Source: Herminiimonas fonticola | GTDB lineage: Bacteria; Pseudomonadota; Gammaproteobacteria; Burkholderiales; Burkholderiaceae_D | NCBI RefSeq assembly: GCF_003293745.1 | Contig: NZ_PTLZ01000002.1 | Coordinates: 310,001-374,000, forward strand | Direction: 5' to 3' | DNA length: 64,000 nucleotides | Shown: positions 2,318-19,701 of the stretch, in pieces | Position numbering within the stretch: the first letter of the stretch is position 1 | Layout of the letters: each line of letters starts with the position of its first letter | Notes under the pieces: model-generated | What the model was told of the DNA's origin: nothing | Databases searched by the model: none | Seen by the model: only the letters and a program-made list of their open reading frames with translations | Translations under genes and position numbers: made by a program

Positions 2318-2929
2318 ATGTTTACTGGAATCGTTGCCGCCATCGGCAAAATTACTACTATTTCCCCTCTCGGCGATGCAGCAGCCGGGCATCGTTTGAC
2401 GGTAGATGCAGGCGGTTTACCTTTGGCCGATGTTGCCCTCGGCGATTCGATCACCCTGAATGGTGCTTGCATGACAGTGGTTGCGAAGACCGATAAACAG
2501 TTTGAAGTCGATGTCTCGCGTGAGAGCCTGAACTGTACCGCCGGCCTGGATGCCATCGGGGAAGTGAATCTGGAAAAGGCGGTTACCTTGTCGGAACGCT
2601 TGGGCGGTCATCTGGTATCCGGTCATGTTGATGGGCTCGGTGTCGTCAGCAAGTTTGAGCCGGTAGGCGAATCATGGCTGCTGGCGGTGGCTGCGCCGAA
2701 AGAACTGGGAAAATTTATTGCAGTGAAGGGATCGATTGTGATCAACGGCGTGTCGCTGACGGTGAATACCGTTACAGATAGCGCTGATGCATGTACTTTC
2801 TCTGTGAACCTGATTCCGCATACAGTCCAGGTCACCACGCTCAAGCATTTGAAGTCGGGTAGCAAGGTCAACCTGGAAATTGATTTGATCGCACGTTATG
2901 TAGAAAGAATGCTCTCTGCGTCTAAGTAA
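2318..2929 (+). CDS. ribE: Riboflavin synthase alpha chain
   Basis: The 203-residue product begins MFTGIV, the invariant start of riboflavin synthase, and carries two lumazine-binding repeats. The first has LNGACMTVV and SGHVDG; the second has INGVSLTVN and ends with the NLEIDLIARYVERML segment. It dismutates two molecules of 6,7-dimethyl-8-ribityllumazine to riboflavin. The last 13 codons lie inside the attachment site of the downstream island: the copy here uses different synonymous codons from the remnant at 14512-14553, so the present 3' end was supplied by the inserted element while the protein sequence was preserved. Confidence 0.96.
   Translation: MFTGIVAAIGKITTISPLGDAAAGHRLTVDAGGLPLADVALGDSITLNGACMTVVAKTDKQFEVDVSRESLNCTAGLDAIGEVNLEKAVTLSERLGGHLVSGHVDGLGVVSKFEPVGESWLLAVAAPKELGKFIAVKGSIVINGVSLTVNTVTDSADACTFSVNLIPHTVQVTTLKHLKSGSKVNLEIDLIARYVERMLSASK
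2888..2929 (+). repeat. attL: left attachment site inside ribE
   Basis: The identical core is ATCGCACGTTATGT (2888-2901), one mismatch (A here, G at 14526), then GAAAGAATGCT (2903-2913). Beyond it the two copies differ in bases but both read LSASK and stop. Because sequence to the right of the crossover in attL comes from the element, the codons GTA, CTC, TCT, GCG, TCT, AAG, TAA are the element's replacement ribE end. Confidence 0.85.
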
Positions 2930-3002
2930 GTGTATTAATTCTTTTAAAATCAATAACTTGATTTAATTTTCTTCCTGGATATGTCTATGTGAATCCATAT
3001 CG

Positions 3003-3072
3003 ATACCGTAAAAAATCACGTTTATTACGGTATAATTTACGGTATTAAAATGAATTTATTCAAAATACCGTA
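3003..3072. promoter_or_regulatory. Four TACGGTAT octamers upstream of the integrase gene
   Basis: The octamer TACGGTAT occurs at 3026-3033 and 3038-3045 on the plus strand, and as its complement at 3003-3010 and 3065-3072. The last copy overlaps the integrase start codon. Related GACGGTATTT units lie at 14432-14453 near attR. Multiple short repeats beside both att cores fit integrase arm-type binding sites, and the copies around the promoter could also allow autoregulation. Binding is inferred from position only. Confidence 0.55.
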
Positions 3073-4250
3073 TGAAACTGACCGATTTAAAGGTATCAAA
3101 AGCGAAAGCGATTGATCGCCCACAAAAGCTCACCGATGGAGGTGGGCTTTATTTATATATATCCCCAACTGGCGTTAAATCTTGGCGTTTGGATTACAGC
3201 CATAACAACAAGCGTTATACCCATACGATTGGTAAATATCCTGTCATTACTTTGGCAGAAGCGCGTGCTAGAAAATTGGAGTTAAAGAAGGAGTTATCAG
3301 CTGGTTTAAGCCCCAGTGTTGAGAAACATAAGGAAAAAATTCGAAGATCAGAAGAGGCGGCTCAAACATTTGAGTTGCTTGCCAATGAATGGTTTCAAGG
3401 AAAAAAAGACATACGGTCAAAAGCTTGGCAAGAAGGAAATGGTCTTTATCTTCGACGCGATTTGATCCCTGCGATTGGAAAAATACCGATCGATGAAATC
3501 AATGGAAAAACACTTTTACTAGTTTTGCAGTCAATTGCAAAAGATCGTGGTGTTAGAACTGCTGATCGTGCGCGTCAGACCGCGCTTCAGGTTTTTGAGC
3601 ACGCTATTTTAAATTTTAAGACGGAAAAAAATCCGGCAGCTATTTTAAGGAAATGGGCCGAGATTCCAGCTGCTGTAAACCGCCCTCATTTAGAAGAGGG
3701 TGATGTACATCAACTGATTGATGCAATGGATGCATATCCTGGTTATCTCACTACAAAGCTGGCCGCCAAATTATTGTTGTTAACTTTTGTTAGAAAAATG
3801 GAAGTTACGGATGCTCAGTGGGATGAGTTTGATCTTCAGAATAAAAAATGGATAATTCCTGCCGAACGCATGAAGATGAAAGAGGCCCATGTTGTCCCGC
3901 TATCTGCTCAAGCGGTCTCACTAATAAATCAACTGCAGCCATATACGCGCGGCTCTAAATATTTATTCCCGAAGAACAGTACAGTTTTGAAGCCTATGAG
4001 TGCCGCGTCTTTGAACAAGATGTTTGACACGATGGGATACAAAGGAAGATTTTCGCCTCATGGTATTAGAGCTACGGCTAGTACTTGGTTGAATGAAAAA
4101 GGTTTTCGGCATGATGTAATAGAACGTCAGTTGGCGCATACCGAACGCAATCAAGTTCGAGCTAGCTACAATCATGCAGATTACTTATTGGAACGCCGGG
4201 AGATGATGCAAGCATGGGCAGATTTTTTATTCCCTAGTGCCAGTAAGTAG
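3072..4250 (+). CDS. P4-type tyrosine integrase
   Basis: This 392-residue protein has the N-terminal DUF4102 arm-binding domain (LTDLKVSKAK, then LTDGGGLYLYISPTGVKSW), a central core-binding region, and a C-terminal tyrosine recombinase domain. Catalytic residues can be placed: Arg in TFVRKMEV, the HVVPLS segment, HGIR (His-x-x-Arg), and the nucleophile Tyr in VRASYNHAD. It would catalyse site-specific recombination between the element and the 3' end of ribE. The reading frame is full length and undamaged. It is transcribed away from attL, as is usual for this family. Confidence 0.93.
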   Translation: MKLTDLKVSKAKAIDRPQKLTDGGGLYLYISPTGVKSWRLDYSHNNKRYTHTIGKYPVITLAEARARKLELKKELSAGLSPSVEKHKEKIRRSEEAAQTFELLANEWFQGKKDIRSKAWQEGNGLYLRRDLIPAIGKIPIDEINGKTLLLVLQSIAKDRGVRTADRARQTALQVFEHAILNFKTEKNPAAILRKWAEIPAAVNRPHLEEGDVHQLIDAMDAYPGYLTTKLAAKLLLLTFVRKMEVTDAQWDEFDLQNKKWIIPAERMKMKEAHVVPLSAQAVSLINQLQPYTRGSKYLFPKNSTVLKPMSAASLNKMFDTMGYKGRFSPHGIRATASTWLNEKGFRHDVIERQLAHTERNQVRASYNHADYLLERREMMQAWADFLFPSASK

Positions 4251-4463
4251 TTGTAGCAATACGTATTGGACTAACAACTCCACATACGGAGCAATCGATT
4301 AGAGCTTGGAAAGTCGTGAAATTAAGGGTATTGATGACTATGCTGCTGCCCAAGATAAATGGCCAGAAAAACTTATAAAACTGGGTCCACTCCTCAGAAT
4401 ATTGAATTTTTACTCAATTTATCTGAACGAGACGCTGGCTGACGGACCAATTACTTATCCAAT

Positions 4464-5714
4464 ATGTTCACTATTCTTTATCCAGAAATTGCAGAGGAGG
4501 CTCTTAAGTATCCAGGGGGTATTCATGCATTTCGCCTTCCGGAAGAGAGCATTCCGTTTTTCTTTGTAAAAATGATGCCTCAATATCTATTAACTGCAAA
4601 GATTAACAAAGGGTTCAAGATTTACGTTGTACCTTTGGAGGTTTCTGGAATCGTGACCGTGGGGTTGATGGCTGCATTCTTTGACGATTCTGACAATCCA
4701 TTAACGGTATGGAGACCTTTGGCGGATGAGCCGGCTACTAGGCAACTAGTAGCCGCATTATCGGCAAAGAACTTGAAAGTACACCTCTTTGATGAGCATA
4801 ATCGCGAGCTACTCGGTTATGCAGCAAGCGTTGGTATGCCTCTTGAAGCCCAAATAAGATTGGAGTGCGCGAACTTTCATGCCTTATCTCATCCCGTTGC
4901 TCATGCGTTAGGAGATGCTGCCAAAGCTTGGTTTTCTACTCGTACTGAAAAAGATGACACGGAGGCTATTTCCATTGCGTTCGACGAGCCGCTCTTTCCT
5001 GAAGATATTGTAATCACGGATATGAACAGTGACCGTTACGATTTCCATGGCAGCAAAGGATTTAACCAAACTTCATTGATTAAAACTGAGCCTGGATACA
5101 CACAAGAAATCGATATCATTCTACTGTTACAGCGAATTTTCCATCCTAGCCAAATATTCCACGCGCCGAAAAGAATCAATGACGGTGAAGAGATTTCTGA
5201 TGTGATGGTGATTACCGATAAGTTATGTCTCATAGTTCAAGCGAAGGACTCTCCAAATACAGACTTAATGCTGCAGAACAGTTTAGAAAGAAAACGTAAG
5301 AAAGCACTTAAACAGCTTAAAGAAGGTATCACTCAGGCATCCGGCGCCATCGGTTATTTACGCAGGGTCAGGCCACTAAAATTTCTAATCGATGGTGAGC
5401 AGATAGAAATCGACTTGGCAAACAGGAATATTCTGTCGCTAGTTGTAGTCCGCGAACTTTTTGATGATGGTTTTACAGAATACAGTGAGCTCTTATTCGA
5501 CTTTCTTAACAAAATAGACTTGCCATGCATCGCGCTAGACTATTCAGAGCTTCATAACTACACCTCGTATTGCGACGATGCTGACGAATTCATCTTCGCA
5601 TTCTTTGAAGTTTTCAACTATGCACTGGCGAATGGGCAATTTCCGCGGTTGCGTTTTGGAATGAATGACCTGTTCTGCGAAGACGGAGCTATCAAGTTTA
5701 ATAAGCCGCGTTAG
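4464..5714 (+). CDS. Unknown protein with PD-(D/E)XK nuclease-like core
   Basis: The frame encodes 416 residues. I do not recognise the full-length family. Residues 243-261 (EEISDVMVITDKLCLIVQAK) fit the pattern of a restriction-endonuclease-like fold: an acidic residue (D246) before one beta strand, then a second strand ending in QxK (Q259, K261), a known variant of (D/E)xK. It is followed by a basic helix (ERKRKKALKQLKEG), which would suit DNA contact. No signal peptide or clear membrane segment is seen. There is no good ribosome binding site before ATG 4464 and a stop lies seven codons upstream in frame, so the start is uncertain; a reading frame from TTG 4306 could be a displaced N-terminus. 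Location beside an island integrase suggests accessory or defence function, but that is inference. Confidence 0.6.
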   Translation: MFTILYPEIAEEALKYPGGIHAFRLPEESIPFFFVKMMPQYLLTAKINKGFKIYVVPLEVSGIVTVGLMAAFFDDSDNPLTVWRPLADEPATRQLVAALSAKNLKVHLFDEHNRELLGYAASVGMPLEAQIRLECANFHALSHPVAHALGDAAKAWFSTRTEKDDTEAISIAFDEPLFPEDIVITDMNSDRYDFHGSKGFNQTSLIKTEPGYTQEIDIILLLQRIFHPSQIFHAPKRINDGEEISDVMVITDKLCLIVQAKDSPNTDLMLQNSLERKRKKALKQLKEGITQASGAIGYLRRVRPLKFLIDGEQIEIDLANRNILSLVVVRELFDDGFTEYSELLFDFLNKIDLPCIALDYSELHNYTSYCDDADEFIFAFFEVFNYALANGQFPRLRFGMNDLFCEDGAIKFNKPR

Positions 5715-5767
5715 AGCTGGGCCTGTACTTCAATTGGCAAGACGAATGGAAAGACAAATCTTTGTGT

Positions 5768-6397
5768 CTAACAAGGCATTATCTTGGCGGCTAATTCAAT
5801 CCGTGCGTGTTTGACGACTGACCATGCGCCCGTTAGCCCTAAAGTACCCATCAGAGTAGCGACCACAATATCCGGCCATCCAGAACCCGTCCCGTAGACT
5901 CCCAACGCTGCAAGCATGACTGCAATATTCCCAATCGCATCATTGCGTGAACATAACCAAACCGAACGCATATTGGCATCGCCTTCTCGGTAGGCGTAAA
6001 GCAGCACGGCAACTGATGCATTCGCTACCAGCGCAAGGAAGCCAATGACGCCCATGGTTGATGATTCGGGGACAATGCCCGACGCCAAATGATATGCAAC
6101 GCTTCCCAGCACAAAAAGCCCATAACTTCCCATGATGAGACCTTTGGCAAGCGCAGTACGGGAACGCCAAACAGGTGCCAGCCCAAGAACGAAAAGGCTG
6201 ACTGCGTAGTTGCCAGCATCACCGAAGAAGTCAACGGCATCAGCTAAAAGCGATACCGAACCGGCATGCCACCCGCCGACCAGCTCTACTACGAACATCA
6301 CGGCATTAACGATGAGAGCAACCCACAAGATGCATCGATAGCGAGCGTCAACCGGTGGTTTATCTGAAGAGCAAGGGCCAGTGCAGCAATCCGCCAT
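5768..6397 (-). CDS. Cation diffusion facilitator-type heavy metal transporter, short form
   Basis: The 209-residue protein starts with a Cys-rich cytosolic leader (MADCCTGPCSSD) followed by six predicted membrane segments. The segment SLLADAVDFFGDAGNY matches the CDF signature with metal-coordinating Asp residues in helix II, and SRNDAIGNIAVMLAA matches the paired site in helix V. It stops after the sixth helix, so the cytoplasmic C-terminal dimerisation domain of CzcD-like transporters is absent. It probably exports Cd2+, Zn2+ or Pb2+ across the inner membrane. It is divergent from a CadR-like regulator, and its promoter contains the MerR-type dyad. An AAGGA ribosome binding site precedes the ATG. 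Confidence 0.85.
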   Translation of the reverse strand: MADCCTGPCSSDKPPVDARYRCILWVALIVNAVMFVVELVGGWHAGSVSLLADAVDFFGDAGNYAVSLFVLGLAPVWRSRTALAKGLIMGSYGLFVLGSVAYHLASGIVPESSTMGVIGFLALVANASVAVLLYAYREGDANMRSVWLCSRNDAIGNIAVMLAALGVYGTGSGWPDIVVATLMGTLGLTGAWSVVKHARIELAAKIMPC

Positions 6398-6423
6398 GAT
6401 GAGTCCTTTAAGGTATATTCATG

Positions 6424-6454
6424 ATTAAACACCCTGTAGTAGCTATAGGGTCAA
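6424..6454 (-). promoter_or_regulatory. MerR/CadR-type promoter-operator of the metal efflux gene
   Basis: Read on the minus strand, TTGACC (6449-6454) and TTTAAT (6424-6429) form -35 and -10 boxes separated by 19 bp, the over-long spacer typical of MerR-activated promoters. Between them lies the dyad ACCCTATAG/CTACAGGGT (6431-6451), with 8 of 9 arm positions complementary. It closely resembles known CadR/PbrR operators. It drives the minus-strand transporter and lies 26 bp upstream of the regulator start, so it may also set regulator levels. Confidence 0.88.
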
Positions 6455-6476
6455 GAAATATATAAAAGGAGTTGTC

Positions 6477-6932
6477 ATGTCTGGTTCAGCGTTGAAGATT
6501 GGCGAGTTGGCAAAGATGACCGGCTCGCAAGTAGAGACTGTTCGTTATTACGAACGTGAAGGCTTACTACCTGCGCCACATAGGTCGGAAGGCAATTATC
6601 GTCTTTACGATTTAACGCACGTCGAGCATCTGCAGTTTGTATTACGGTGCAGGTCGCTTGATATGACGCTTAACGAGATACGGGAGTTGCTTAAGTTTAG
6701 AGATTCGCCAGAAGAAAACTGTGGCGCGGTCAATGAGCTGCTGGACCACCACATCGGACATGTGACCACTCGTATTGCGGAATTGCAGTCGTTAGAAAAA
6801 CAATTGAAGAAGCTGCGGAAGTTGTGCGGACAATCGCAAAAGGCTAAAGACTGTCAGATACTGCAAGGCTTGTCTAAGCCTCAGAGTACCAAGGCGAGAA
6901 AGCTTGCTTCACATGGACCTGGATGCCATTAA
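6477..6932 (+). CDS. cadR: MerR-family heavy-metal regulator, CadR/PbrR type
   Basis: The 151-residue protein opens with the MerR winged-helix domain (LKIGELAKMTGSQVETVRYYEREGLL), followed by the dimerisation helix. Three cysteines at positions 82 (ENCGAV), 117 (KLCGQS) and 126 (KDCQIL) match the Cys77/112/119 metal-site pattern of CadR and PbrR. The C-terminus is HGPGCH, which adds another possible metal ligand set as in CadR. It would untwist the 19-bp-spacer promoter and activate the divergent efflux gene when cadmium, lead or zinc is bound. The exact metal cannot be read from sequence. An AAAAGGAG ribosome binding site lies 5 nt before the ATG. Confidence 0.9.
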   Translation: MSGSALKIGELAKMTGSQVETVRYYEREGLLPAPHRSEGNYRLYDLTHVEHLQFVLRCRSLDMTLNEIRELLKFRDSPEENCGAVNELLDHHIGHVTTRIAELQSLEKQLKKLRKLCGQSQKAKDCQILQGLSKPQSTKARKLASHGPGCH

Positions 6933-7053
6933 TTTGAATTACGAATGTCCGCTCTGGGTCGGAAGCAGACGTCTGCCAAAGGCCAAAAGCTGACATTGAG
7001 CTATCTAATTCTCTCATCACATTCTCAACTCAATTTTCACGTACTTTATATTG

Positions 7054-7365
7054 ATGTTAATCGGTGCCTCTACGGTATTCTTTGTGCGCATCAGACCTTG
7101 AGCTATGGCATTGCCGTCGCTACACTTTTGCATTTGGTAATGGATTACGGAATTAGCGCACATTGCGTCTGTTGGGAAAGCCGCTGTCTATGTTGAAACT
7201 ATTGCCCTAAGCCTAACGGCCTTCTTGTTGATGGCGTCTACCATAAGCGAGACGTTACGACGCGTTCCGGATGGCTATGCATTCGGAACTGACCTTAAGT
7301 CTCCACTTCTTCTTGGATTCCAAGGGGATCTCTTTCTTCTTATCGTCGGGGGATTCCTCAAATAA
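7054..7365 (+). pseudogene. Degenerate reading frame in a 666-bp gap
   Basis: The stretch 6933-7598 has no intact gene. In one frame from ATG 7054 to TAA 7365 there is protein-like sequence interrupted by stops at 7099 and 7138. The last 74 codons stay open and include hydrophobic runs (ETIALSLTAFLLMAS and GDLFLLIVGGFLK), which look like membrane helices. No start codon with a ribosome binding site precedes the open part. I read it as the remains of a small membrane protein gene, family unknown. The rest of the gap shows only a terminator near its right end. Confidence 0.3.
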
Positions 7366-7514
7366 TATTTCTACGCAGAGAGGAAGGTCAATCTCTCAGT
7401 GAGCACGATTTTACACGGCGTGTTGCCGAGTCGAATTGTTAAAGTGATTGTTTCTTGCTGCAAGTGTGACCGACAGTTTTCCGATTAGCTGAAAACATAA
7501 TTCATACGTTAAAA

Positions 7515-7548
7515 AGCCTGGGCCAATCAGATTGGTCCAGGCTTTTTT
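7515..7548 (-). terminator. Rho-independent terminator of the MFS gene
   Basis: A 13-bp stem (AGCCTGGGCCAAT at 7515-7527 with 7531-7543, one G-T pair) has a 3-nt loop and is flanked by A-run and T-run. It lies 50 bp beyond the stop of the minus-strand MFS gene. It could act in both directions. Confidence 0.85.
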
Positions 7549-7598
7549 AGAGATTCAAGCGCTTAACTCAAATCTAACTTAGCTGTACATGTAAAACC

Positions 7599-8978
7599 TT
7601 ATGCAGAAACTTCTTCAAGCGATTTTCCTTTGGTCTCTATACCCATCGTAATGACGATCAGAGCTGCGGCAGTGAAAGAAATGGCGCCCAGAGTAAACAC
7701 ACCTGTATGACCCGTGAACGGCAAGATTACGCCAACTGCAAACGGGCCGAGCAATGAACCCAGGCGACCTATCGATGAAGCAAAACCGGCACCCGTTGCA
7801 CGAGAGCGCGTAGGGTAGAGTTCTGGCGTGTACGCATAGAGTACGGACCACATGCCGAACATAAAGAATTGCATGCAGAGACCGGCACCTATCAGTTGTG
7901 CAACCGGTGCTTGCGCCGTCGCGACTTGGCCATACACATAGGCGGCACATGCACTGCCGATCAGCATCAAGACGCAGGTTGGTTTTCTGCCCCACGCTTC
8001 CAGCAGCCATGCAGAAAAGATGAAACCCGGGATACCTGCCAGCGAAATATAGATTGTGTAAGTAACCGATTTGGTGACTTCATAACCGGCTTGCTGCAGC
8101 AACGCACCCAGCCATGTGGTGAGACCGTAGTAACCGAGCAAGGCGAAGAACCATAGCGACCACAACATGATGGTGCGCTTCGCATATACGCCGTGCCAAA
8201 GTTCTGCGAACAATGCGCGCTTGTTTACTTTTTCAGGCATCGCGATGGCGGCAGTTGGTGGTGGCAGCGGCTTGCCCTTGTTGGCAGCGATCACGCGTTG
8301 TTCGATGTGGGTCGTGACGCGATCTGCTTCTTCAATGCGGCCGACTTCTTCCAGCCAGCGAGGTGACTCAGGCACATAGCGGCGGATCACGAAAACGAAT
8401 ACTGCAGGAACCGATAGCGCGATAAAGATGCCGCGCCAGCCTATCAATGGCAAGGTCAGGTAGGCAACGATGCCGGCTGCAATAAAACCGAGCGGCCAGA
8501 AACCTTCCAGAATCGCTACGTATTTGCCACGACTTTTAGCCGGAACGATTTCAGAAACCATAGATAAACCGATAGGGAATTCCATCCCCATACCGAAGCC
8601 GAGCAGCACACGGAACATCATTAACTGTTCAACGTTTTGCGAGAAGCCGCACAGCAAACTACCTACACCCCAGAACACCATGCTCCATTGGAACACCGGC
8701 TTGCGACCAAATTTATCTGCCAGCATGCCGGCCGTTGCGGCGCCAAGAAACATGCCGAGAAAACTGGAGCTTGCCAGCAAACCGGCTTGCGTCGTACTGA
8801 GGCCGAACTCTGCCTTGATGGAGCCAAGCACAAAGGTCATGATGCCAAGATCCATCGAATCGAAAAACCAGGCTGTCGCAATAATCGCGAATAGAGAACG
8901 CTGGTAGCGTGTCATCGGCAGCCGTTCCAGGCGTGCCGCCACATTAGAAAGAAGCTGAGCTCCAGGGGTTGCATTCAT
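7599..8978 (-). CDS. Major facilitator superfamily transporter
   Basis: The 459-residue protein has 12 predicted membrane helices in two halves with a cytosolic loop of about 50 residues. The loop 2-3 signature GMLADKFGRKPV and its second-half counterpart SAWLLEAWGRKPT are present, as are RVLLGFGMGMEFPIGLSMVSE and PESPRWLEEVGR, which are typical of the sugar/metabolite and aromatic-acid porter branches. It is a secondary carrier in the inner membrane and probably imports an organic acid. The substrate is unknown; the adjacent hydrolase and alcohol dehydrogenase suggest it supplies their substrate. An ATATAT-centred palindrome lies 65-78 bp upstream of the start. A terminator follows. Confidence 0.9.
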   Translation of the reverse strand: MNATPGAQLLSNVAARLERLPMTRYQRSLFAIIATAWFFDSMDLGIMTFVLGSIKAEFGLSTTQAGLLASSSFLGMFLGAATAGMLADKFGRKPVFQWSMVFWGVGSLLCGFSQNVEQLMMFRVLLGFGMGMEFPIGLSMVSEIVPAKSRGKYVAILEGFWPLGFIAAGIVAYLTLPLIGWRGIFIALSVPAVFVFVIRRYVPESPRWLEEVGRIEEADRVTTHIEQRVIAANKGKPLPPPTAAIAMPEKVNKRALFAELWHGVYAKRTIMLWSLWFFALLGYYGLTTWLGALLQQAGYEVTKSVTYTIYISLAGIPGFIFSAWLLEAWGRKPTCVLMLIGSACAAYVYGQVATAQAPVAQLIGAGLCMQFFMFGMWSVLYAYTPELYPTRSRATGAGFASSIGRLGSLLGPFAVGVILPFTGHTGVFTLGAISFTAAALIVITMGIETKGKSLEEVSA

Positions 8979-9042
8979 TTTTGTCTCCGGTAATGCCGCA
9001 TCATTTGTGTGGCTTTTTATTGGATTAATGTTTTTGTTTCTA

Positions 9043-9056
9043 ACTAATATATTACA
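9043..9056. promoter_or_regulatory. Candidate GntR operator upstream of the MFS gene
   Basis: ACTAATATATTACA is an imperfect palindrome whose centre resembles the sites at 11176-11187 and 12914-12927, all in front of genes around the GntR regulator. It sits 65-78 bp before the MFS start codon. Function is inferred from recurrence only. Confidence 0.35.
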
Positions 9057-9154
9057 TGAATCTTAGTTATATTCAATGAAAATTCAAGAAGACTTTTGTC
9101 GCGTTGAAAACTTTCAACTGAATGCATTATTTTCACGACGATATTCGCCCGGCA

Positions 9155-10396
9155 TTACGCCCTTCCTAGCTCTCCGGCCCATGCGCGCTTAACGATTCGG
9201 GCATATGTAGCGGCAACATCTTCGACCGGAAACGCTTTGGCCAGGCGGGTCACGGCCAATGCATCCTCAATCAATGCGGGCAGTTGTTCTTGCGCAATAC
9301 CAAAATCTCTTAAATTGGTCGGAATCCCGAGTTGGGCTATCAGGTCTCGGATCAGGGCTGGTAATTGCTGGACGACTTGCTGTTCATCTTTGTCATCCAG
9401 GCCGAATAAACGCGCGACTTCAAGAAGTTCTTTATGTCGTGTGATTCGTAAGGCATCAAGTACATACGGCAACATGACGGCATTGGTGCTGCCGTGCGAC
9501 TGATGCGTCAAACCTGCGACTGCGTATGCGATGCCATGCACTGCATTCAAACCTGCACCGCCGTACGATAATGCCGCGTAATGACTTGCATACGCCATGC
9601 CGATGCGTGCTTCAGTGTCGCCGCCATCGTGATAGGTGCGCATCAGAAAACGGGCGCAGAGGTCGATCGCTTGATGCGCGAACAACATGGTCAGTGACGA
9701 ACGGCCGCTATAGCCGGGATCGGGATGCCCGCCTCTATCGAAGTCGAATGAATCCAGCGTTATGTACGATTCCAGCGCATGCGTCAGAGCGTCTATGCCA
9801 GAGTCTGCGGTGACGCGTGGTGGGCAAGTGTAGGTGAACTCGGGATCGATCAGTGCAATCACAGGGCGCAATACATTGTCCATAACCGCAACCTTGGTCG
9901 CATTGCTGGGATCAATCAGGATCGCGCCGGGTGTGGCTTCCGAACCGGTGCCGGCGGTGGTTGGTAGCGCGATCAAAGGGAGTGCGTGCGGCGCAGCGGG
10001 CAGAGCCCCTATAAATTGTTTGACTGGCTTGCCATCCGGGATCGTGACACATAAGGCTTTTGCCAGATCGATGTTGCTGCCCCCACCGAGTGCGATGACG
10101 TGGTCTGGACGTGTGTTGCCCAGCTTGCTGCGAATTTCCTGTGTTGCATCGTCGCAGAGAGTGGTGGTTGGATCTGGTTTTCCTCCTTCAAATAAGACAG
10201 TTTCTATACCGAGGGCGGTGGCTGCATCGATATATTCTTTTACCCAGGGAGTTTGTTTGCTGAAAAAAGTGTCTGTGACAAGGACGCCGGACTTGTAGCC
10301 TAGGCGTGCGAGCAAAGTCGGCAACTGGGCCCGACTGCCGCAACCTAAAATGACACGCGCAGGGGGGCAAAAATGGATTTGATCATTGGTTCGCAT
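9155..10396 (-). CDS. Iron-containing alcohol dehydrogenase family protein
   Basis: From ATG 10396 the product is 413 residues. A longer frame to 10564 exists, but this ATG has a GGAGAG ribosome binding site and starts just inside the end of the upstream hydrolase gene. The nucleotide-binding GGGSNIDLAK (104-113), PTTAGTGSEAT and the metal ligands D202, H206, H287 and H301 are all present. This identifies a group III metal-dependent alcohol dehydrogenase, which interconverts alcohols or hydroxyacids and carbonyl compounds with NAD(P)H. It resembles maleylacetate reductases in overall form, but the intact metal site argues for an ordinary Fe-dependent enzyme. It overlaps the upstream gene by 14 bp, so the two are translationally coupled. 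Confidence 0.85.
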   Translation of the reverse strand: MRTNDQIHFCPPARVILGCGSRAQLPTLLARLGYKSGVLVTDTFFSKQTPWVKEYIDAATALGIETVLFEGGKPDPTTTLCDDATQEIRSKLGNTRPDHVIALGGGSNIDLAKALCVTIPDGKPVKQFIGALPAAPHALPLIALPTTAGTGSEATPGAILIDPSNATKVAVMDNVLRPVIALIDPEFTYTCPPRVTADSGIDALTHALESYITLDSFDFDRGGHPDPGYSGRSSLTMLFAHQAIDLCARFLMRTYHDGGDTEARIGMAYASHYAALSYGGAGLNAVHGIAYAVAGLTHQSHGSTNAVMLPYVLDALRITRHKELLEVARLFGLDDKDEQQVVQQLPALIRDLIAQLGIPTNLRDFGIAQEQLPALIEDALAVTRLAKAFPVEDVAATYARIVKRAWAGELGRA

Positions 10397-11138
10397 GAGA
10401 CTCTCCGTGGGTCGGGATAGTAGAAAGAAAAGCGCGCATTTCGTCTGCAACGCGCACTGTGTTTTGCTTGAGGATGCTGTGTTTGCCACCGTTAATAATG
10501 CGTAGGTTTGCATTCGGCAAGCCCTGTGCAAGCAAATGCGCATGGGCGATTGGTGAGTCTTCATCGTCGCTGCCGTGCACGATTAAAGTCGGTGTGTGGA
10601 TTGCGGATAGCAAGGGACGTTGATCTGTATCGCTGATGGCTTGCCAGGTCCACGCGACGGCATCGCGATCAGCCGCATTGTGCAGACCTAATCGAACTTC
10701 ACGCGCTTCAATTTCCTGCAATAGCGGGACGTAATCGGTTTGATGAAACCATTCTGTCTGTTGCAGTACAGGGCTGCCCGACATCAGGATTAGTGCGGCA
10801 GGCATGTGCAGCTTTTCACGCTGCAGCAAAGCGATTGTGGCCAGCGTGACCGACACGCCCATGCTCCAGCCCGCCAGCACGAAGTTTGGCGTTGTTACGT
10901 GCGTTGCGACTACCTCTGCAATATCTGCAGCAAATTTTTCCAATGTGTAGTCGCTGGTTTGCATGCCGCGAAAGGCATCTGCGCGACCACGTAAATTGGG
11001 TTGTATCCAGCGTGCATCGTTCGGCAATAGTTGCACTACCGGATCCCAACTACTGCGCGTTCCCTGTATGCCATGAATCGCAATGATGCTTAAGTCGCTT
11101 GCATCGTTGCCAGTGATGGCTACATCAAATTTTTCCAT
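10383..11138 (-). CDS. Alpha/beta-hydrolase fold esterase or lactonase
   Basis: The 251-residue protein has the oxyanion motif HGIQG (22-26), nucleophile elbow GWSMG with Ser92, an acidic residue near 191-194 in HGSDDEDSP, and catalytic His220 in GGKHS. It is a soluble hydrolase of the pimeloyl-ester/haloperoxidase type acting on esters, lactones or C-C bonds; the precise substrate cannot be inferred. The gene is first in a two-gene operon with the alcohol dehydrogenase, divergent from a GntR regulator. A perfect 12-bp palindrome lies 38-49 bp upstream. Together with the MFS carrier this suggests uptake and degradation of a small ester or lactone. Confidence 0.82.
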   Translation of the reverse strand: MEKFDVAITGNDASDLSIIAIHGIQGTRSSWDPVVQLLPNDARWIQPNLRGRADAFRGMQTSDYTLEKFAADIAEVVATHVTTPNFVLAGWSMGVSVTLATIALLQREKLHMPAALILMSGSPVLQQTEWFHQTDYVPLLQEIEAREVRLGLHNAADRDAVAWTWQAISDTDQRPLLSAIHTPTLIVHGSDDEDSPIAHAHLLAQGLPNANLRIINGGKHSILKQNTVRVADEMRAFLSTIPTHGESHANQ

Positions 11139-11175
11139 TATTCCTCCACGTTTTACTTGGATATTCTTCGTATAT

Positions 11176-11187
11176 AAGATATATCTT
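11176..11187. promoter_or_regulatory. Candidate GntR operator in the divergent promoter region
   Basis: AAGATATATCTT is a perfect 12-bp palindrome between the divergent hydrolase (start 11138) and GntR (start 11278) genes, where a local regulator would be expected to bind. It shares the ATATAT centre with the sites at 9043 and 12914. Confidence 0.45.
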
Positions 11188-11277
11188 TAGCTGTTCCTGA
11201 TCGCGTGAACTCTGTAGAGTTATGGTTCACAGCCGTCATATACAATCGTTTTTTCACTAGGTATTGATTCACACTCC

Positions 11278-12018
11278 ATGGCAACTACAAGAAAAACATC
11301 AGTCAAGACCAAAGCGGCGGAGCCGAAAAAGAAAACCACACGTCAGGCCAGCAGCATTAATGGCATGGCGGATCCCAAACCGAAGCTGACTGATCTCGCA
11401 TACGACCAACTCGAAGAGGCGATCATTACCTTGCGTATTCCTCCAGGTTCGGTCATCTCTGAACTGACCTTGAGCGAAATGTTTAACATCGGTCGTACGC
11501 CTATACGCGAAGCTATCCAGCGGTTGGCGCGCGAGCATTTGTTACTGGTCTTGCCGCAACGCGGTTTGATGGTTCCTGAAATCGATCTCAAGAAACAGTT
11601 GAAGCTTCTGGAAACACGCCGCGAAGTAGAGCGCCTGATTTGCAAAAGTGCTGCGCGCCGTGCGACGCCTGCCGAGCGCGAGATCTTTGCCAGACTGCAC
11701 GATGAATTCATGCATGCTTCTTCCACTAACGACGACGTCACTTTTATGCGTTCGGATCGTGAGTTCAATGAACTCACACTGGTCGCAGCGCGTAATGAAT
11801 TTGCCGAAGGTGCTATGCGCCTGATGCATGGCTTATCGCGTCGCTTCTGGTATTTCCATTACAAACAGGCAGCAGATCTTCCGGAAATGGCGCGCTTGCA
11901 TGCCAATGTGGCCGGAGCGATTGCCAAGGGCGATGTGGCAGCAGCGGGCGAGGGACTCGATCGACTGCTGGACAATATCGAAACCTTTGCAAAAGCAACA
12001 CTGATGTCCGACATGTAA
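11278..12018 (+). CDS. GntR/FadR-family transcriptional regulator
   Basis: The 246-residue protein has a 35-residue Lys-rich N-terminal extension, then the GntR winged helix (AYDQLEEAIITLRIPPGSVISE, ...NIGRTPIREAIQRLARE), and an all-helical FCD effector domain with the expected residues (RREVERLICKSAARRA, DREFNELTLVAARN, LHANVAGAIAKGD). FCD regulators usually bind a metal plus a small carboxylate and release DNA on binding. It is divergent from the hydrolase-dehydrogenase operon and convergent with the membrane hydroxylase gene. Likely it controls this whole metabolic block including the MFS carrier. The effector is unknown. Confidence 0.92.
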   Translation: MATTRKTSVKTKAAEPKKKTTRQASSINGMADPKPKLTDLAYDQLEEAIITLRIPPGSVISELTLSEMFNIGRTPIREAIQRLAREHLLLVLPQRGLMVPEIDLKKQLKLLETRREVERLICKSAARRATPAEREIFARLHDEFMHASSTNDDVTFMRSDREFNELTLVAARNEFAEGAMRLMHGLSRRFWYFHYKQAADLPEMARLHANVAGAIAKGDVAAAGEGLDRLLDNIETFAKATLMSDM

Positions 12019-12053
12019 AAAAAAGCGGTTGCCGGGATCAATTCGGCAACCGC
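12017..12053 (-). terminator. Terminator of the membrane hydroxylase gene
   Basis: A perfect 10-bp stem GCGGTTGCCG (12025-12034 with 12044-12053) has a 9-nt loop and is followed, on the minus strand, by a run of eight T. It lies in the 43-bp space between convergent genes and mainly serves the minus-strand gene. Confidence 0.85.
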
Positions 12054-12061
12054 GAAGAGCA

Positions 12062-12880
12062 TCAAATAACGAGGCCGCGATCAATGGTTTCGTTTTCTTC
12101 TTTAGTTAATTGAGGTCCATCCAGCGTGACGCGTGAATCATCGAGACGGAAGCGCTTGATGATGGGCTTCAACTCTTCCTTCACATGTTTTTCGCTATAG
12201 CCGTTAAACAGGTGGCCGATCAATCCACGATTAAGATCAGTCGTACCCATTGCCCAGTCGGCGATAGGGAAAGTCAGGTTCATGTTGTACTTCATCATGA
12301 TGCCCTGATTGTGATGCGCAGTATGGTGGCGACGTATCGTGTTGATGAATGGCATATTGCGTACAAACCAGTTCTCATGCACGTGGCAGCAGTAGTGAAA
12401 TGTTTCATAGATCAGATACTGCGCGACCATCGTAATGAACAGGATATAACCGGCATTCAGATTAAAAATGATGGAGGCCAGATAACCAAACGTCAGACCA
12501 CCAACACCCAAAGTGATTAATACACGCCAAGGGAAGAAAACGATACGAAATTCACGTGTTGTATCTATCGTCGCTTCGTTATCGGTGAAGTATTGGTGAT
12601 GCTGGCGGGTGTGGCGATCGTAAATCGCACGTAATGCGTAGACGTCAATGCGACGGTGCATGACGAAACGATGCATCGCCCATTCGACAAAATTCCCGGC
12701 CAGAAAAACCGGTATCGCAATCAACCATTCCCAGCCCGCACCGTCCAGTTGCGTCAGGCAATACCAGATTGCTGCAATCCCTACCGAGTACATCACCCCA
12801 ATATGCAACAGGCCGTTGTATAGCGGGCTGATATCGGCTTTGTATTCTTCGCGGAATTTCCGCTGGCGTTCGCTCATCAT
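12062..12880 (-). CDS. Sterol desaturase / fatty acid hydroxylase superfamily protein
   Basis: The 272-residue integral membrane protein carries the histidine clusters of di-iron membrane hydroxylases: HRFVMH, HTRQHH, FHYCCH with nearby HENW, and RRHHTAHH. Hydrophobic segments separate the clusters. Family members hydroxylate or desaturate lipids and sterols, or cleave ether lipids, using O2. The exact substrate here is not visible. The start may be either of two consecutive ATG codons, with GGAG just upstream. A near-perfect ATATAT-centred palindrome lies 34-47 bp upstream, suggesting control by the neighbouring GntR protein. It is part of the island cargo. Confidence 0.87.
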   Translation of the reverse strand: MMSERQRKFREEYKADISPLYNGLLHIGVMYSVGIAAIWYCLTQLDGAGWEWLIAIPVFLAGNFVEWAMHRFVMHRRIDVYALRAIYDRHTRQHHQYFTDNEATIDTTREFRIVFFPWRVLITLGVGGLTFGYLASIIFNLNAGYILFITMVAQYLIYETFHYCCHVHENWFVRNMPFINTIRRHHTAHHNQGIMMKYNMNLTFPIADWAMGTTDLNRGLIGHLFNGYSEKHVKEELKPIIKRFRLDDSRVTLDGPQLTKEENETIDRGLVI

Positions 12881-12913
12881 GATTATCTCCTTAATCGTTG
12901 TGCTTGATGTATG

Positions 12914-12927
12914 ACTGATATATTAGT
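12914..12927. promoter_or_regulatory. Candidate GntR operator upstream of the membrane hydroxylase gene
   Basis: ACTGATATATTAGT is a 14-bp palindrome with a single non-complementary pair, 34-47 bp before the start at 12880. It shares the TRATATATYA centre with the site at 9043. Confidence 0.45.
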
Positions 12928-13041
12928 GGTGTATATTTTCGATGTCAAGGTCGATATTTGGATGCATGGTGATTTTGTGTGAGGTTTGTTGCATGAACGG
13001 AAATCCGCAAATCGATAAAATCAAAACGAAAGGAGATGAAT

Positions 13042-13707
13042 ATGGAATTGATACCTCGTCTGCAGAAACTGGTGGATACCTTGAATGGTTTGTTCGAGAG
13101 TGAAGGTAAAAAAGACGAACAGCAAAAACTTTCCATTGCGGGTGAGGCGTTAAAAATGCTGGTCGCGACTGATGACTGGTTGCCGGAGGAATTTGCGCAA
13201 TCCCATCCTCAGTACTATCAGCAATACTTGCTGTACTGTGATCCACAGCAACGGTTTTCCATTGTCAGTTTTGTGTGGGGGCCTGGCCAAACCACACCTA
13301 TACACGATCACAAAGTGTGGGCATTGATAGGCATGCTGCGTGGTGCAGAACGCAGCGAGCGTTTCGTGGTGGCGTCGCAGGCTCAGCCTATGAAGTGCAT
13401 AAGCAGGGACATACTGTTTCAAGGGGAGATTGAAAGCTTGTCGCCGTCTTTGGGCGATATACATCGTGTGTCAAACGCGTATGCAAACCGCTTATCGATC
13501 AGTATCCACATCTATGGTGGGAATATTGGCCAAATTAAACGACACATTTATGATCAGGCCACTGGGAATATGAGCGAATTTATTTCTGAATATTCAAATA
13601 TCCCGTGCAATTCGGGCTCCTGTTTTCCGACATCTTCGGCGTGTATATCGGGTAATCCTTGTCCTCGATACTTGAAATTTTGCTTTCGGGCAATAGCACA
13701 CGATTGA
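13042..13707 (+). CDS. Cysteine dioxygenase-type cupin (thiol dioxygenase)
   Basis: The 221-residue product is read from ATG 13042, which has AAGGAG 6 nt upstream; an in-frame ATG at 13036 directly abuts that site and is less likely. The iron ligands H88, H90 (TPIHDHKVW) and H141 (GDIHRVSN) match the 3-His site of cysteine and 3-mercaptopropionate dioxygenases, with SISIHIYGGNIG near the end of the cupin. It would oxidise a thiol to a sulfinate using O2. After residue 185 (FISEYSN) the sequence becomes Cys/Ser-rich and no longer resembles the family, so the true 3' end may have been lost by frameshift or rearrangement near the island's right part. Confidence 0.8.
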   Translation: MELIPRLQKLVDTLNGLFESEGKKDEQQKLSIAGEALKMLVATDDWLPEEFAQSHPQYYQQYLLYCDPQQRFSIVSFVWGPGQTTPIHDHKVWALIGMLRGAERSERFVVASQAQPMKCISRDILFQGEIESLSPSLGDIHRVSNAYANRLSISIHIYGGNIGQIKRHIYDQATGNMSEFISEYSNIPCNSGSCFPTSSACISGNPCPRYLKFCFRAIAHD

Positions 13708-14511
13708 GTGGCAGCTTTGGGTCGACAGTAGATAGCAGTTTTATTAGAAAATTTGGAGTTGCGTTTTATGAGGAGGAATTCATAAAAGTTGCTTTGAAAA
13801 TACAACTTATTTACGACACATTCATCGGAATAACTATTTCCGTACGGCAATTTAAGATAACCTGAAATCTGCGACTGTGCAATACGGTGCAAGGCATCAC
13901 ATGATGCAATACGAACAACTATTTTCCATTCATTTAGATAGAATCTTTCTCATTTCAAAACCATGTTTTCCTCCCCGTTTTCCAAGAATCTATCTTTGCA
14001 AGCATGGGGTACCCTCGTTCTTGGCTGGACAGTAAGGGTTTCACTTTCTAAAAGTGCTTTAAGGGCACAAGGGGTTGCAACAAGTAAGCCCAGGGCAAAC
14101 GGTGTAACTATATTCTTTGATTGCGACTCTAATATTGAACGCGCAATTTGTTCTTCAATTTCATCTTTGTTCATGTGTACTTTCAGAGTGCGAACGCGCG
14201 CCTTCCTTGTTAAAAAGAAAAGGATGCATTCGAGGGAAACAGGAGAGTTTTCTAGTACAGGTATTCGAGAGAATTCCTGAATGATTGAATGCTTGGGTCG
14301 TAAGATATGCACACTCAATAATTGCAATTATTATAACATTTAAGTTGCTATTTTGAAATATTCAGAAGAGAATAGCGGGCGGTTTTATATCTCAGTTTGT
14401 CTGTCTTTGTATCGCTGAAGCCATGAAATTAGACGGTATTTTTGACGGTATTTCTGTAATGAAATTATATTAAATATAATTAAATCAAAGACTTATGATT
14501 TTTATTTCATA
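13708..14511. other. AT-rich right end of the island, mostly without genes
   Basis: No well-supported gene is seen in this 0.8-kb stretch. A minus-strand frame of 74 codons from ATG 14174 to 13950 has a predicted helical N-terminus (MNKDEIEEQIARSI) and one hydrophobic segment, but its ribosome binding site is weak. I give it little weight. The last 100 bp are very AT-rich and contain the tandem arm-type repeats next to attR. Confidence 0.5.
14432..14453 (+). repeat. Arm-type repeats near attR
   Basis: GACGGTATTT occurs twice in tandem at 12-bp spacing (14432-14441 and 14444-14453), about 60 bp left of the right attachment core. The ACGGTAT part is shared with the four octamers beside the integrase gene at 3003-3072, which supports integrase binding at both ends. 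Confidence 0.5.
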
Positions 14512-14553
14512 ATCGCACGTTATGTGGAAAGAATGCTGAGCGCTTCAAAATGA
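14512..14553 (+). repeat. attR: displaced original 3' end of ribE
   Basis: Read in frame it encodes IARYVERMLSASK and stop, exactly the last 13 residues of ribE, but with different codons at six positions after the crossover region and TGA instead of TAA. There is no start codon or upstream ribE sequence, so this is the host's original gene end left behind by integration. Confidence 0.88.
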
Positions 14554-14559
14554 GTTTTT

Positions 14560-14587
14560 AATGAACCTGCTTAAATGAACCTGCTTA
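14560..14587 (+). repeat. 14-bp tandem duplication
   Basis: AATGAACCTGCTTA is present twice without a gap, immediately right of attR. It probably arose by slippage; no function is apparent. Confidence 0.6.
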
Positions 14588-14738
14588 CTTTGCAGCTTCA
14601 TCTGTCGTGTAGATATCGGTTCAATGCTCCGAGTAGCAGGAAATTAATGCCGATGCTGTATTTTGTGAAAACTCTATAGCCCCGTTGCTAGTCAGATAGC
14701 TCGCATTGTTTTGATGTAATAAGAAAAGGTGTACCACC

Positions 14739-15206
14739 ATGAATTCCTCCCTCCGTCTTCGCCTCGCTTGCTTCGTCGTAATAACAGGCGCCGCGTTTCA
14801 CGCAAATGCAGAGAGTTTTGCATCGTCGGCTTCAAGTGCCGGTTCAGCCTCTAGCGGCAGCGTGTCGGACTCGTTGCATGATTCGAGCAACAGTTCGAGC
14901 AACAGTTCGAGTACGGATGAGAAGAGAGCCGATGGCGACTACCGCATCATCGATGTTGCCGCAGCGCCTAATCGAGGCGATTTCCGACGGGTCACTATGC
15001 AGGCTGACACTTCGCAGCAACGTATTGTGCTCGACCTGCCTGCGACCATTCTAGACAAGCAAGGTCTTAGTCGTGGTGATCTGGTGCACGCGCAACATCG
15101 CGTGTACGGCCTGGAGTTTGCTCGCAGCGATACGCGCGAAGCGTTCTATCTCGTGCTGGACGACAAGTGGCATGAAGAACTTGCGCCGCGCATCGTCGGT
15201 CTGTGA
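14739..15206 (+). CDS. Exported Ser-rich protein of unknown function
   Basis: The 155-residue product has an N-terminal signal peptide (hydrophobic core LACFVVITGAAF, likely cleavage after ANA), then a low-complexity Ser-rich linker with repeated SNS/SS units (about residues 26-60), then a folded-looking C-terminal part (GDYRIIDVAAAP ... FYLVLDDKWHEEL). I do not recognise the family. It would be periplasmic or outer-membrane attached by charge. Its stop overlaps the GTG start of the next gene by 4 bp, so the two are translationally coupled and probably work together. Confidence 0.75.
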   Translation: MNSSLRLRLACFVVITGAAFHANAESFASSASSAGSASSGSVSDSLHDSSNSSSNSSSTDEKRADGDYRIIDVAAAPNRGDFRRVTMQADTSQQRIVLDLPATILDKQGLSRGDLVHAQHRVYGLEFARSDTREAFYLVLDDKWHEELAPRIVGL

Positions 15207-16126
15207 GGCTTAGGCCGCTCCTATTACTCTTGTTGACGGTTGCAGCCGTTACAGTCGCTGGCGCGGCAAATGCTGCCTCCGGCTTATCGGCCGCATCGAA
15301 TTTCTGTGATCGGGCGCATCAGCTCTCCGCGGGCCAGCAAGATCGCATATTGCGATTTGCGGCTGTCGTGCGCGAGGAGTTGGCTGCGATTAACAGTAGT
15401 GCGGTATTGATCAGCCGCTCCGGTCTGGATTTGTCACGCTTTCATATACGTTACTCGCATGCCGCCATTGCCTGGCGAGATGAGGATGAGGTGTGGACTG
15501 CTCGCCAGCTCTACTATGCATGTGATGAAGAGCGCCCCCGCATTTATGACCAGGGCATTGCCGGATTCGCGATGGGTATCGACAATCCGTCGCTTGGCTA
15601 CATCTCGATAGTCAAACTGCCATCTGACTCGGCACAGATACTTAGAGACGCATCGCTGGATAAAGCGCGCGTACTGAGATTGCTGGCGGCGACCTATAGC
15701 GCCAATGCCTATGCATATGGTCTGAGCTATCAGAATTGCAATCAGTGGGTGATGGAAACACTGGCGGCGGCATGGGGCGGGCTGGCTGATGGCGAGGACT
15801 TGCGCGAGCGTGCCCAGCTTTGGTTACGCCAGGCTGGCTATGCGCCGCAACCGACGGCTGTCGATTCCCACTGGCTAATGTTTGCTGCAGGTTTTGTGCC
15901 GCTTTTGCATCTTGATGATCATCCAGCAGATGATCGCTTTGCGATGAAACTGAAGATCAGTTTGCCGGCCACCGTCGAAACTTTCATCCAGGAGAAATTC
16001 CCTGGTACTGAACACATCGAGATTTGCCACGATGGCAAACGCGTCGTTGTACATCACGGCTGGTCGCCTATCGCCGACGGATGTATACCGGGAGAAGGTG
16101 ATCGTATTGTCTACCTGGATGAGTAA
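15203..16126 (+). CDS. Exported DUF2145-family protein
   Basis: This 307-residue protein begins at GTG 15203, overlapping the previous stop as GTGA. A signal peptide (LLLLLLTVAAVTVAGAANA) precedes the mature region. Segments such as SGLDLSRFHIRYSHAA, QLYYACDEERPRIYDQG and YQNCNQWVMETLAAAW match my memory of DUF2145 proteins. The conserved Cys in NCNQW together with the His in RYSHAA recalls a papain/NlpC-like Cys-His arrangement, so a periplasmic hydrolase role is possible but unproven. It forms a two-gene operon with the Ser-rich exported protein. Confidence 0.75.
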   Translation: MRLRPLLLLLLTVAAVTVAGAANAASGLSAASNFCDRAHQLSAGQQDRILRFAAVVREELAAINSSAVLISRSGLDLSRFHIRYSHAAIAWRDEDEVWTARQLYYACDEERPRIYDQGIAGFAMGIDNPSLGYISIVKLPSDSAQILRDASLDKARVLRLLAATYSANAYAYGLSYQNCNQWVMETLAAAWGGLADGEDLRERAQLWLRQAGYAPQPTAVDSHWLMFAAGFVPLLHLDDHPADDRFAMKLKISLPATVETFIQEKFPGTEHIEICHDGKRVVVHHGWSPIADGCIPGEGDRIVYLDE

Positions 16127-16264
16127 CAAATATCCTCTTCGTTACCAACCGACCTACATTAGGTAAATTGATCGGCTAAGGTTTTTGGCGCTTGCTGCGG
16201 ATAAACTGAGGTGCCGAAGTTGCCTATACGATGTCTAGTGGCAGCACGATGATTGGTATCAATG

Positions 16265-18364: not shown

Positions 18365-18611
18365 TCAATAGGGCGGCGCATTGCGCAAGTCACACGCGGA
18401 AAAGACGGTATTTCTCCATTCATACGGCCAGCAATATGCCGAAGAAAGTGCGATGAAGCACTTTTATAATAAGCGTTGATTTGTGTCAATAAAATTAACG
18501 CGCTCTTAATGTCATTTCAAGGAGCTTTATCCATTTGTACGTGTTTTTCAATGCAGAATGAATGCCTTCTGCTCCCAAATGCTTAGGTCTGGAAGTCTTC
18601 TGCTGAGTATT

Positions 18612-19319
18612 TCAAGCAGGCAGGGTTGGCGGCATAGACGTTTTGTATGGGATCAGGTAGCGGGTATTAAATAGAAGGGCAAGTGCGCTTACCCAAGCCA
18701 GAGACAACATCCAGCCCGCTAAAATATCGCTTGGGTAATGGAAGCCCTGGTACATACGACATACGCCAACCAAAAGAACGGCGGCGATACTGATTGCAAC
18801 GATTATCGGAATCTTGCGGCTGGAACGCCATAGGATTACTAAGGCTATCGCGATGGCCATCGACTGCGTTGCATGACCACTGGGGAATCCAAAAGATGCA
18901 TGAGTTATCCACAAATCCGGTCGACTTCGCTGAATTGCTATTTTGAGAATTGATGCGAGGATAGCCGAACCGGCGATCGCCACTAGCCAGAACAAGGCTG
19001 TGCGCCACAGACGTTGGTACAGCAGATAGCACAAGATAAAAACGCTCAGCAGAGTGACCAGCATAGAAATCGTTGACGCAATATGATCCAGCAATGGTGT
19101 CGCATACACACGGAGAGACCATAGAAGAGTTTTCTCGAAGACAGGAAAACCGCCGCGGTTTATGCGCTCTGCGAGGGAAAAGAAAAAAATCATTGGCAGG
19201 ATGACGCCAAATAGAAGCAAGGCTTTCCTGATCTGTCCAATATATGCATGATTACCCCGCAAGCTCCGAAGAGTCCATCCATCCTGTTTTGTGAAGTAAT
19301 TTCGAACTGGATTTGTCAT
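18612..19319 (-). CDS. PAP2-family membrane phosphatase
   Basis: The 235-residue protein has about six membrane helices and the three phosphatase motifs: KIAIQRSRP (KxxxxxxRP), FPSGHAT (PSGH), and CRMYQGFHYPSD (normally SRxxxxxHxxxxD, here Cys for Ser). PAP2 enzymes dephosphorylate lipid phosphates such as phosphatidic acid, undecaprenyl pyrophosphate or phosphatidylglycerophosphate at the periplasmic face of the inner membrane. No neighbour narrows the substrate. The gene stands alone between the signalling protein and the rib genes. Confidence 0.88.
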   Translation of the reverse strand: MTNPVRNYFTKQDGWTLRSLRGNHAYIGQIRKALLLFGVILPMIFFFSLAERINRGGFPVFEKTLLWSLRVYATPLLDHIASTISMLVTLLSVFILCYLLYQRLWRTALFWLVAIAGSAILASILKIAIQRSRPDLWITHASFGFPSGHATQSMAIAIALVILWRSSRKIPIIVAISIAAVLLVGVCRMYQGFHYPSDILAGWMLSLAWVSALALLFNTRYLIPYKTSMPPTLPA

Positions 19320-19701
19320 GTGCTAACTCAGCTAGAGTCTGTTTAAGGATGTATGTCAGTTCGTCAATTTTTTGCCATTAACTGAGTCGGGGCAAACCGG
19401 TGCAGGCTGGTTTGCAAGAAGCGCAAGGAAAAGAAAAGCAGGGCCCAATGTTATGCAAGTAGGGTGACAACTTAATGACAAATTCTTAATGAACGGTGGC
19501 TGAGGCCAGTGGCATCGCTTTAATCCACAGCGTCAACATCGATTACAAACAGGCAGTCCAAAAACAGCCGCAGATCACACTAAAATGTCTGCGGGCCGGC
19601 ACAAATCGCCGAATTCCGCTCAAACCGGCCGATTCTTGCGTAATCCAGAGAGTAGAAGGCCGCCAAATCCTTTAAAATAGCGACCTACTCCGAGATTACC
19701 C
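19320..19701. other. Leader region before ribBA, no gene
   Basis: This 382-bp stretch holds no convincing gene. It contains a 7-bp hairpin GCAAACC/GGTTTGC at 19392-19415. I looked for the conserved pieces of an FMN riboswitch and did not find them. A promoter for the ribBA-ribH-nusB group is likely here but cannot be pinpointed. Confidence 0.5.

Follow-up and report, generated by a model that had tools for sequence, protein, structure and literature searches.

Islands with P4-type (Arm-DNA-bind_3) integrases mainly use tRNA genes as integration sites, and phage 21 uses icd, as does the prophage e14. For e14 in icd of Escherichia coli K-12, 10 synonymous and 2 non-synonymous differences are given in a published account (PMC6379469). 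Among the approximately 1.75 million genomic islands of the TIGER/Islander collection, 43.4% lie in coding sequences (PMC12424338), and islands usually carry replacement sequence for their target gene, according to a paper on satellites (PMC10111431). Here we describe such a case at ribE, the essential gene for riboflavin (vitamin B2) synthase, in a stretch of 64,000 nucleotides of Herminiimonas fonticola (contig NZ_PTLZ01000002.1, positions 310,001 to 374,000), called the window below. The region 2889-14519 is very probably a genomic island that integrated through its P4-type tyrosine integrase, by recombination between the attachment site of the element (attP) and the 3′ end of ribE. A duplicated ribE end, an intact ribE frame, an integrase gene and arm repeats are present in the window, and three sister elements of like anatomy are present in other genomes. 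Replacement of a gene end by an element is a known mechanism; ribE is a new target as far as the literature was searched, since a search of the open literature, with the main 2020 island survey outside its reach, found no report of it as an integration target.

An initial annotation of the sequence had noted two copies of the ribE end coding for the same peptide, here the left and right attachment sites (attL and attR, Table 1), and the direct repeat, its translation and a probe search all bear this out. The copies 2888-2931 and 14512-14555 are 80% identical across 44 nt, and both encode IARYVERMLSASK (13 residues) followed by a stop. Within the 42 nt up to and including the stop there are nine mismatches (positions 15, 27-30, 33, 36, 39 and 41), every one of them silent. 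The 26-nt core, with one free position and up to 3 mismatches allowed, occurs at two places in the window and in 0 of 100 shuffled sequences, and a 361-nt ribE-end probe matched only these two places in the genome (E ≤0.001). Six codon pairs and one stop pair had earlier been listed as differing, all of them correctly; GTA/GTG lies inside the shared core and the others follow it. Because the two tails differ in their codons as much as random synonymous choices would, neither seems to have been copied recently from the other.

The element between the two copies measures 11.6 kb. As in tyrosine-recombinase islands, the integrase lies inside the element near one end and direct repeats form attL and attR, one of them in the target gene. 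The full-length integrase starts 142 bp past ribE and reads away from it; R241, K268, H330, R333, H356 and Y366, to which we assign the catalytic roles, are invariant across the four ribE integrases described below. The integrase and arm repeats of the initial annotation are real, with ACGGTAT copies on both sides; two further copies occur elsewhere within the element. Its G+C content is 46.9%, that of the ribD-ribE segment (1209-2929) 54.2% and that of 14554-19590 48.7%. No tRNA or tmRNA gene was found in the window, hence no tRNA attachment site, and Rfam gave nothing at gathering score in 1-24000. Among the 11 larger open reading frames (ORFs) of the island, which were scanned with Pfam, neither phage structural, primase or packaging families nor the relaxase and type IV secretion genes by which an integrative conjugative element is recognised were found.

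The suggestion that other integrases of this type might adjoin ribE was followed up by searches, which found them in three more genomes. The closest full-length integrases found elsewhere are those of Noviherbaspirillum humi (63% identity), of genome G043 (59-60%) and of a Rhodocyclales metagenome-assembled genome (MAG; 49-50%), all directly downstream of ribE. Among the best 80 of 191 loci from a scan of genome contigs, the top two were those of N. humi (63%) and the MAG (49%); the other loci showed no ribE in the stretches examined, some of them short. A family search of 392 genomes (E ≤1e-90) returned the window, N. humi again (G035, with the same coordinates as G013), G043 (60%, after ribE) and G010 (44%), the last without ribE in the stretch examined. 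At the level of the order (E ≤1e-100), 45 of 399 genomes had matches, and none of the 29 new loci had an adjoining ribE. The same holds for the best 80 of 90 and the best 80 of 402 loci (one in common) from viral contigs, many of which begin at the integrase, and 28 plasmid records reached an integrase identity of 41% at best. In all surveys pooled, ribE stands beside the integrase at 5 of 289 loci, in 4 genomes. Two viral loci were discounted as close relatives: L250 (58%) is a 93-residue fragment at a contig end, and L247 reaches 50% in its C-terminal part only, with 29% in the rest, the C-terminal region being equally conserved in integrases away from ribE (L080, 65%).

A maximum-likelihood tree of 100 rows was built from the window and all but one of 100 chosen loci (the exception, L247, has a best aligned piece shorter than 330 residues, and many fetched loci stood outside the selection). 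In it the four integrases beside ribE cluster together with support 100/97, and this group is recovered in 100% of 200 bootstrap trees. None of 500 label shuffles was as clustered. The long-branched L069, whose locus lacks ribE, adjoins this group with weak support (87/68). That the four integrases are a ribE-specific lineage is well supported by sequence comparison; this lineage would restore the part of the riboflavin synthase gene that encodes the C-terminal helix.

In the three sister elements the second ribE end lies at 12,833 bp (N. humi, a 12.8-kb island), 16,217 bp (G043, 16.2 kb) and 45,068 bp (MAG, 45.1 kb). The attR of N. humi starts 245 bp before ribBA, and in the MAG ribBA follows 81 bp after the start of attR. 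In each of the four elements the ribE frame continues across attL and ends at a stop. The donated end keeps ARYVERML in the sisters and the residues beyond it differ: attL and attR end in MLSLSQVD and MISLRAHGDTDAG in N. humi (the second of these taken from the sequence itself), in MLSVSHNV and MLSWINESSKP... in G043, and in MLIAAE and MLTAGVAA in the MAG, each followed by a stop except the attR reading of G043, which meets no nearby in-frame stop. ACGGTAT arm repeats are common to the four elements. Similar repeats stand about 105 and about 93 bp from the right end in 4/4, both exact in two elements; each of the other two has a single-base change in one of its copies.

The four attL/attR pairs also point to a position for the crossover. 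Mismatches in the 26-nt core fall at position 15 in the window, at 9, 12 and 25 in N. humi, at 1 and 20 in G043, and at 9, 21 and 25 in the MAG, which makes positions 2-8 (TYGCRCG) the sole block of seven positions free of mismatches in all four. An overlap of 7 bp suits a tyrosine recombinase. The element proper is therefore most likely bounded by crossovers in 2889-2895 and 14513-14519; a single later mutation at position 15 of the window core would also permit a crossover in positions 13-19. Taken alone, the MAG codons favour neither side.

We propose that the crossover takes place at the left margin of the common block, in the codons for IAR. From the tyrosine codon on, the expressed gene (the YVERML codons, a short tail and the stop) would then be element DNA, and the old host end of ribE would have been displaced to the opposite end of the island. 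The attP would carry, in frame, its own codons for the C-terminal helix, so that riboflavin synthase would stay whole and the host survive. For this helix a role in trimerization has been suggested, the subunits making contact mainly via their C-termini as a triple helix, according to a review (PMC10366380). RibE of the window aligns through residue 199-201 with five solved full-length riboflavin synthase sequences (9 entries matched, the remainder being lumazine or fusion proteins or partial chains). Since a single ribE was found in the genome, the rebuilt end would have to work if the cell makes riboflavin, and RibE is presumably functional. The island may still be mobile; an excised circle is predicted to have a junction in which TTTCATA of the right arm leads via the core to CTCTCTGCGTCTAAGTAA.

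That the element brought its own ribE end, as the initial annotation had inferred, is supported by the same layout in the three sister elements and by the likeness of the displaced copy to the ribE ends of two relatives, ATGCTGAGCGCAGCCAAATAA in G002 and GTGGAAAGAATGCTGAGTGCATCT in G010. The same annotation had predicted that in related genomes ribE would continue directly into 14554 onward. In the genus it does not, because the interval between ribE and ribBA had already been altered, probably before the island arrived, but the logic of an empty site holds in Noviherbaspirillum, where all 15 genomes have ribE, with ribBA within 1.5 kb in 13 of them, the exceptions being N. humi and G147. Among the 12 relatives within the genus, the two genes are adjacent in G011 only, about 0.13 kb apart; they are 4.9 to 138 kb apart in G002, G004, G006, G007, G008 and G012, 1.3 Mb apart in G001, and on different contigs in G003, G005, G009 and G010. 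These 12 genomes have no integrase match close to ribE, and the interval is too divergent for a clean empty site. The ribE-ribBA split in 11 of them, with no duplicate of the ribE end found in the stretches scanned, implies that other insertions or rearrangements affect this place.

Several observations weigh against an integrated island of a ribE-specific lineage. The right flank of the window does not follow ribE in the relatives, and no empty site of the same species was found among the genomes compared. In the stretches scanned, a second ribE end was found in none of the 12 genus relatives (for G001, G003, G005, G007, G009 and G010 the scan covered part of the interval or ribBA lay on another contig); in the motif scan of seven of them, the other five being scanned separately, the best background reached 20 of 30 matches, whereas the window had 26 and N. 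humi 25. The attR end of G043, which lies 361 bp from a contig end, may be decayed or non-native, as it has no near in-frame stop and ribBA is on another contig. Lastly, at least 400 nt ahead of the integrase are available in only 189 of the 287 aligned loci, and more cases with or without ribE could therefore have been missed.

One alternative concerns the origin of the displaced copy, which could be a tail left by an earlier ribE element instead of the original host end. Such serial replacement is a possible but unlikely history. The DNA after ribE in G010 (L017) aligns with the left arm of the element with a score of 26, reached by 0 of 300 shuffles (largest 20), the tail of G010 resembles the 14512 copy, and the window has 5 kb more DNA between attR and ribBA. 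Yet no arm is recognisable after 14553 (score 9, equalled by 293 of 300 shuffles), the tail of G002, whose flank shows no such arm (41 of 300 shuffles score as high), is similar, and the likeness of G010 could also stem from an earlier uptake, by the element, of DNA from a relative of that kind. The arm-like stretch in G010 is itself a likely relic, with no adjoining integrase match. A wider reading is speculative and, taken as a whole, unlikely: the integrase lineage of these Oxalobacteraceae- and Rhodocyclales-named hosts would repeatedly swap the RibE end, the 14512 tail would be an earlier gift, integration would uncouple ribE from ribBA, and both the natural variety of RibE C-termini and the disruption of the rib cluster in the genus would partly be its footprint.

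The initial annotation had also inferred that the element was selected to keep the protein. Selection for an identical protein is not supported as a property of the elements, since N. humi, G043 and the MAG have displaced tails whose amino acids are not those of the donated ones, and the tails of relatives vary after ARYVERM or ARYCERI; of the four genomes, only this one has the same peptide at both ends. Strong selection acting on SASK itself, as opposed to a chance match of short and similar tails, is improbable. In its favour, none of 400,000 sequences with nine random substitutions keeps the peptide as the nine observed differences do, and the codons for SASK and the stop differ at 7 positions, where random synonymous choices differ at 5.75 on average and 36% of encodings show at least as many differences. 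It is, however, a single case, the tail is altered in the other three members of the lineage, and the tails in the genus are diverse (SAAK, SASR, SQSQ, SQSK, TWSRAE and others). Local duplication or homologous rearrangement without site-specific integration is highly improbable, for although the ribE-ribBA interval is altered in 11 of the 12 genus relatives with no second ribE end found there, a recent duplication would not yield nine silent differences and none else in 42 nt, the copy begins and stops at the ribE end with integrase and arm repeats inside, and the layout is repeated in three other genomes.

The other genes of the island and of its right flank are listed in Table 1. The 416-residue protein beside the integrase contains a D...QAK stretch that, we assume, recalls nucleases, and PADLOC gave no match among the six island proteins scanned. 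Beyond attR, a DUF2145 gene occurs in 5 of the 13 genus genomes and near ribE in the window only; in G002 and G010, DNA matching the small ORF and this gene (14739-16126) is distant from ribE or sits on a different contig. The segment 16256-18500 has a 78.5% match within the ribE-ribBA interval of G002; the gene that we named GGDEF/EAL-like from its sequence has a DNA match in that interval. The gene at the far end of this flank we take to be ribBA.

Table 1. Features of the ribE island and its surroundings in the window.
Feature	Position	Strand	Basis or remark
ribE, riboflavin synthase	2318..2929	+	ORF, Pfam Lum_binding; single genome copy found; last codons probably from element
attL, ribE end in use	2888..2929	+	Direct repeat D1 and comparison with attR; host left of crossover, element right
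Likely 7-bp crossover (overlap) block TCGCACG	2889..2895	+	Inferred from four attL/attR pairs
Left arm	3003..3071	.	ATACCGT/ACGGTAT repeats at 3003, 3027, 3039, 3065 (arm region 2930-3071)
Tyrosine integrase	3072..4250	+	Pfam Arm-DNA-bind_3, Phage_int_M, Phage_integrase (arm-binding, central, catalytic)
Protein without assignment, 416 aa, beside integrase	4464..5714	+	No match in Pfam, PADLOC, NCBIfam
CDF-type cation efflux protein	5768..6397	-	PF01545; CDF superfamily model under NCBIfam cut-off
CadR/PbrR-type MerR regulator	6477..6932	+	TIGR02047 above cut-off
MFS transporter, nearest aromatic acid type	7599..8978	-	PF07690; TIGR00895 best but below cut-off
Iron-containing alcohol dehydrogenase	9155..10564	-	PF00465
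Alpha/beta hydrolase	10383..11138	-	PF00561
GntR/FCD regulator	11278..12018	+	PF07729, PF00392
Fatty acid hydroxylase family protein	12062..12880	-	PF04116
Cysteine dioxygenase-like protein	13036..13707	+	PF05995
Right arm	14433..14451	+	Two ACGGTAT direct repeats (14433, 14445), 12 bp apart; similar place in three sisters
attR, displaced older ribE end, outside gene now	14512..14553	+	Direct repeat D1; like ribE ends of G002, G010
Right flank outside element: small ORF, DUF2145 gene, GGDEF/EAL-like gene, 235-aa ORF	14739..19319	.	
ribBA homologue, next riboflavin-cluster gene, 16.8 kb from ribE	19702..20814	+	Adjacent to ribE in G011

Each of the three sister islands holds matches to models of anti-phage defence, which makes the ribE site a place to seek more. 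The N. humi island (L159, 12003-13918) has a CBASS-like pair, in which one protein is a SMODS cyclase with AGS_C and the other a SLATT_6 effector with two transmembrane segments. In G043 (L256, 592-7251) there are a type IIG / type ISP restriction-methylation protein, a QatC-like protein and an RmrA-like helix-turn-helix/peptidase protein, and in the MAG (L258, 5519-14776; six chosen proteins scanned) three neighbouring genes give near full-length matches to HmaC, HmaB and HmaA.

Within the reach of the literature searched, riboflavin synthase would join the genes used as integration sites. Core and arm sites for a single integrase lineage can be read from the four attachment-site pairs, and the finding suggests that the element must preserve the C-terminal helix rather than the exact tail. 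The lineage is also a candidate tool for insertion at ribE of related bacteria.

Like the TIGER/Islander islands in protein-coding genes, the present element is site-specific, and ribE may already be among the sites of that collection. It shares with the P4-type islands the domain architecture of the integrase and the position of its gene next to attL; it differs from them in that the present group uses ribE. From e14 it differs in its target, ribE instead of icd, in that no phage genes were recognised with Pfam among the 11 ORFs scanned, and in the replaced end, which would be shorter, at about 34 nt. As e14 does at icd, the ribE island restores the reading frame of its target with sequence of its own.

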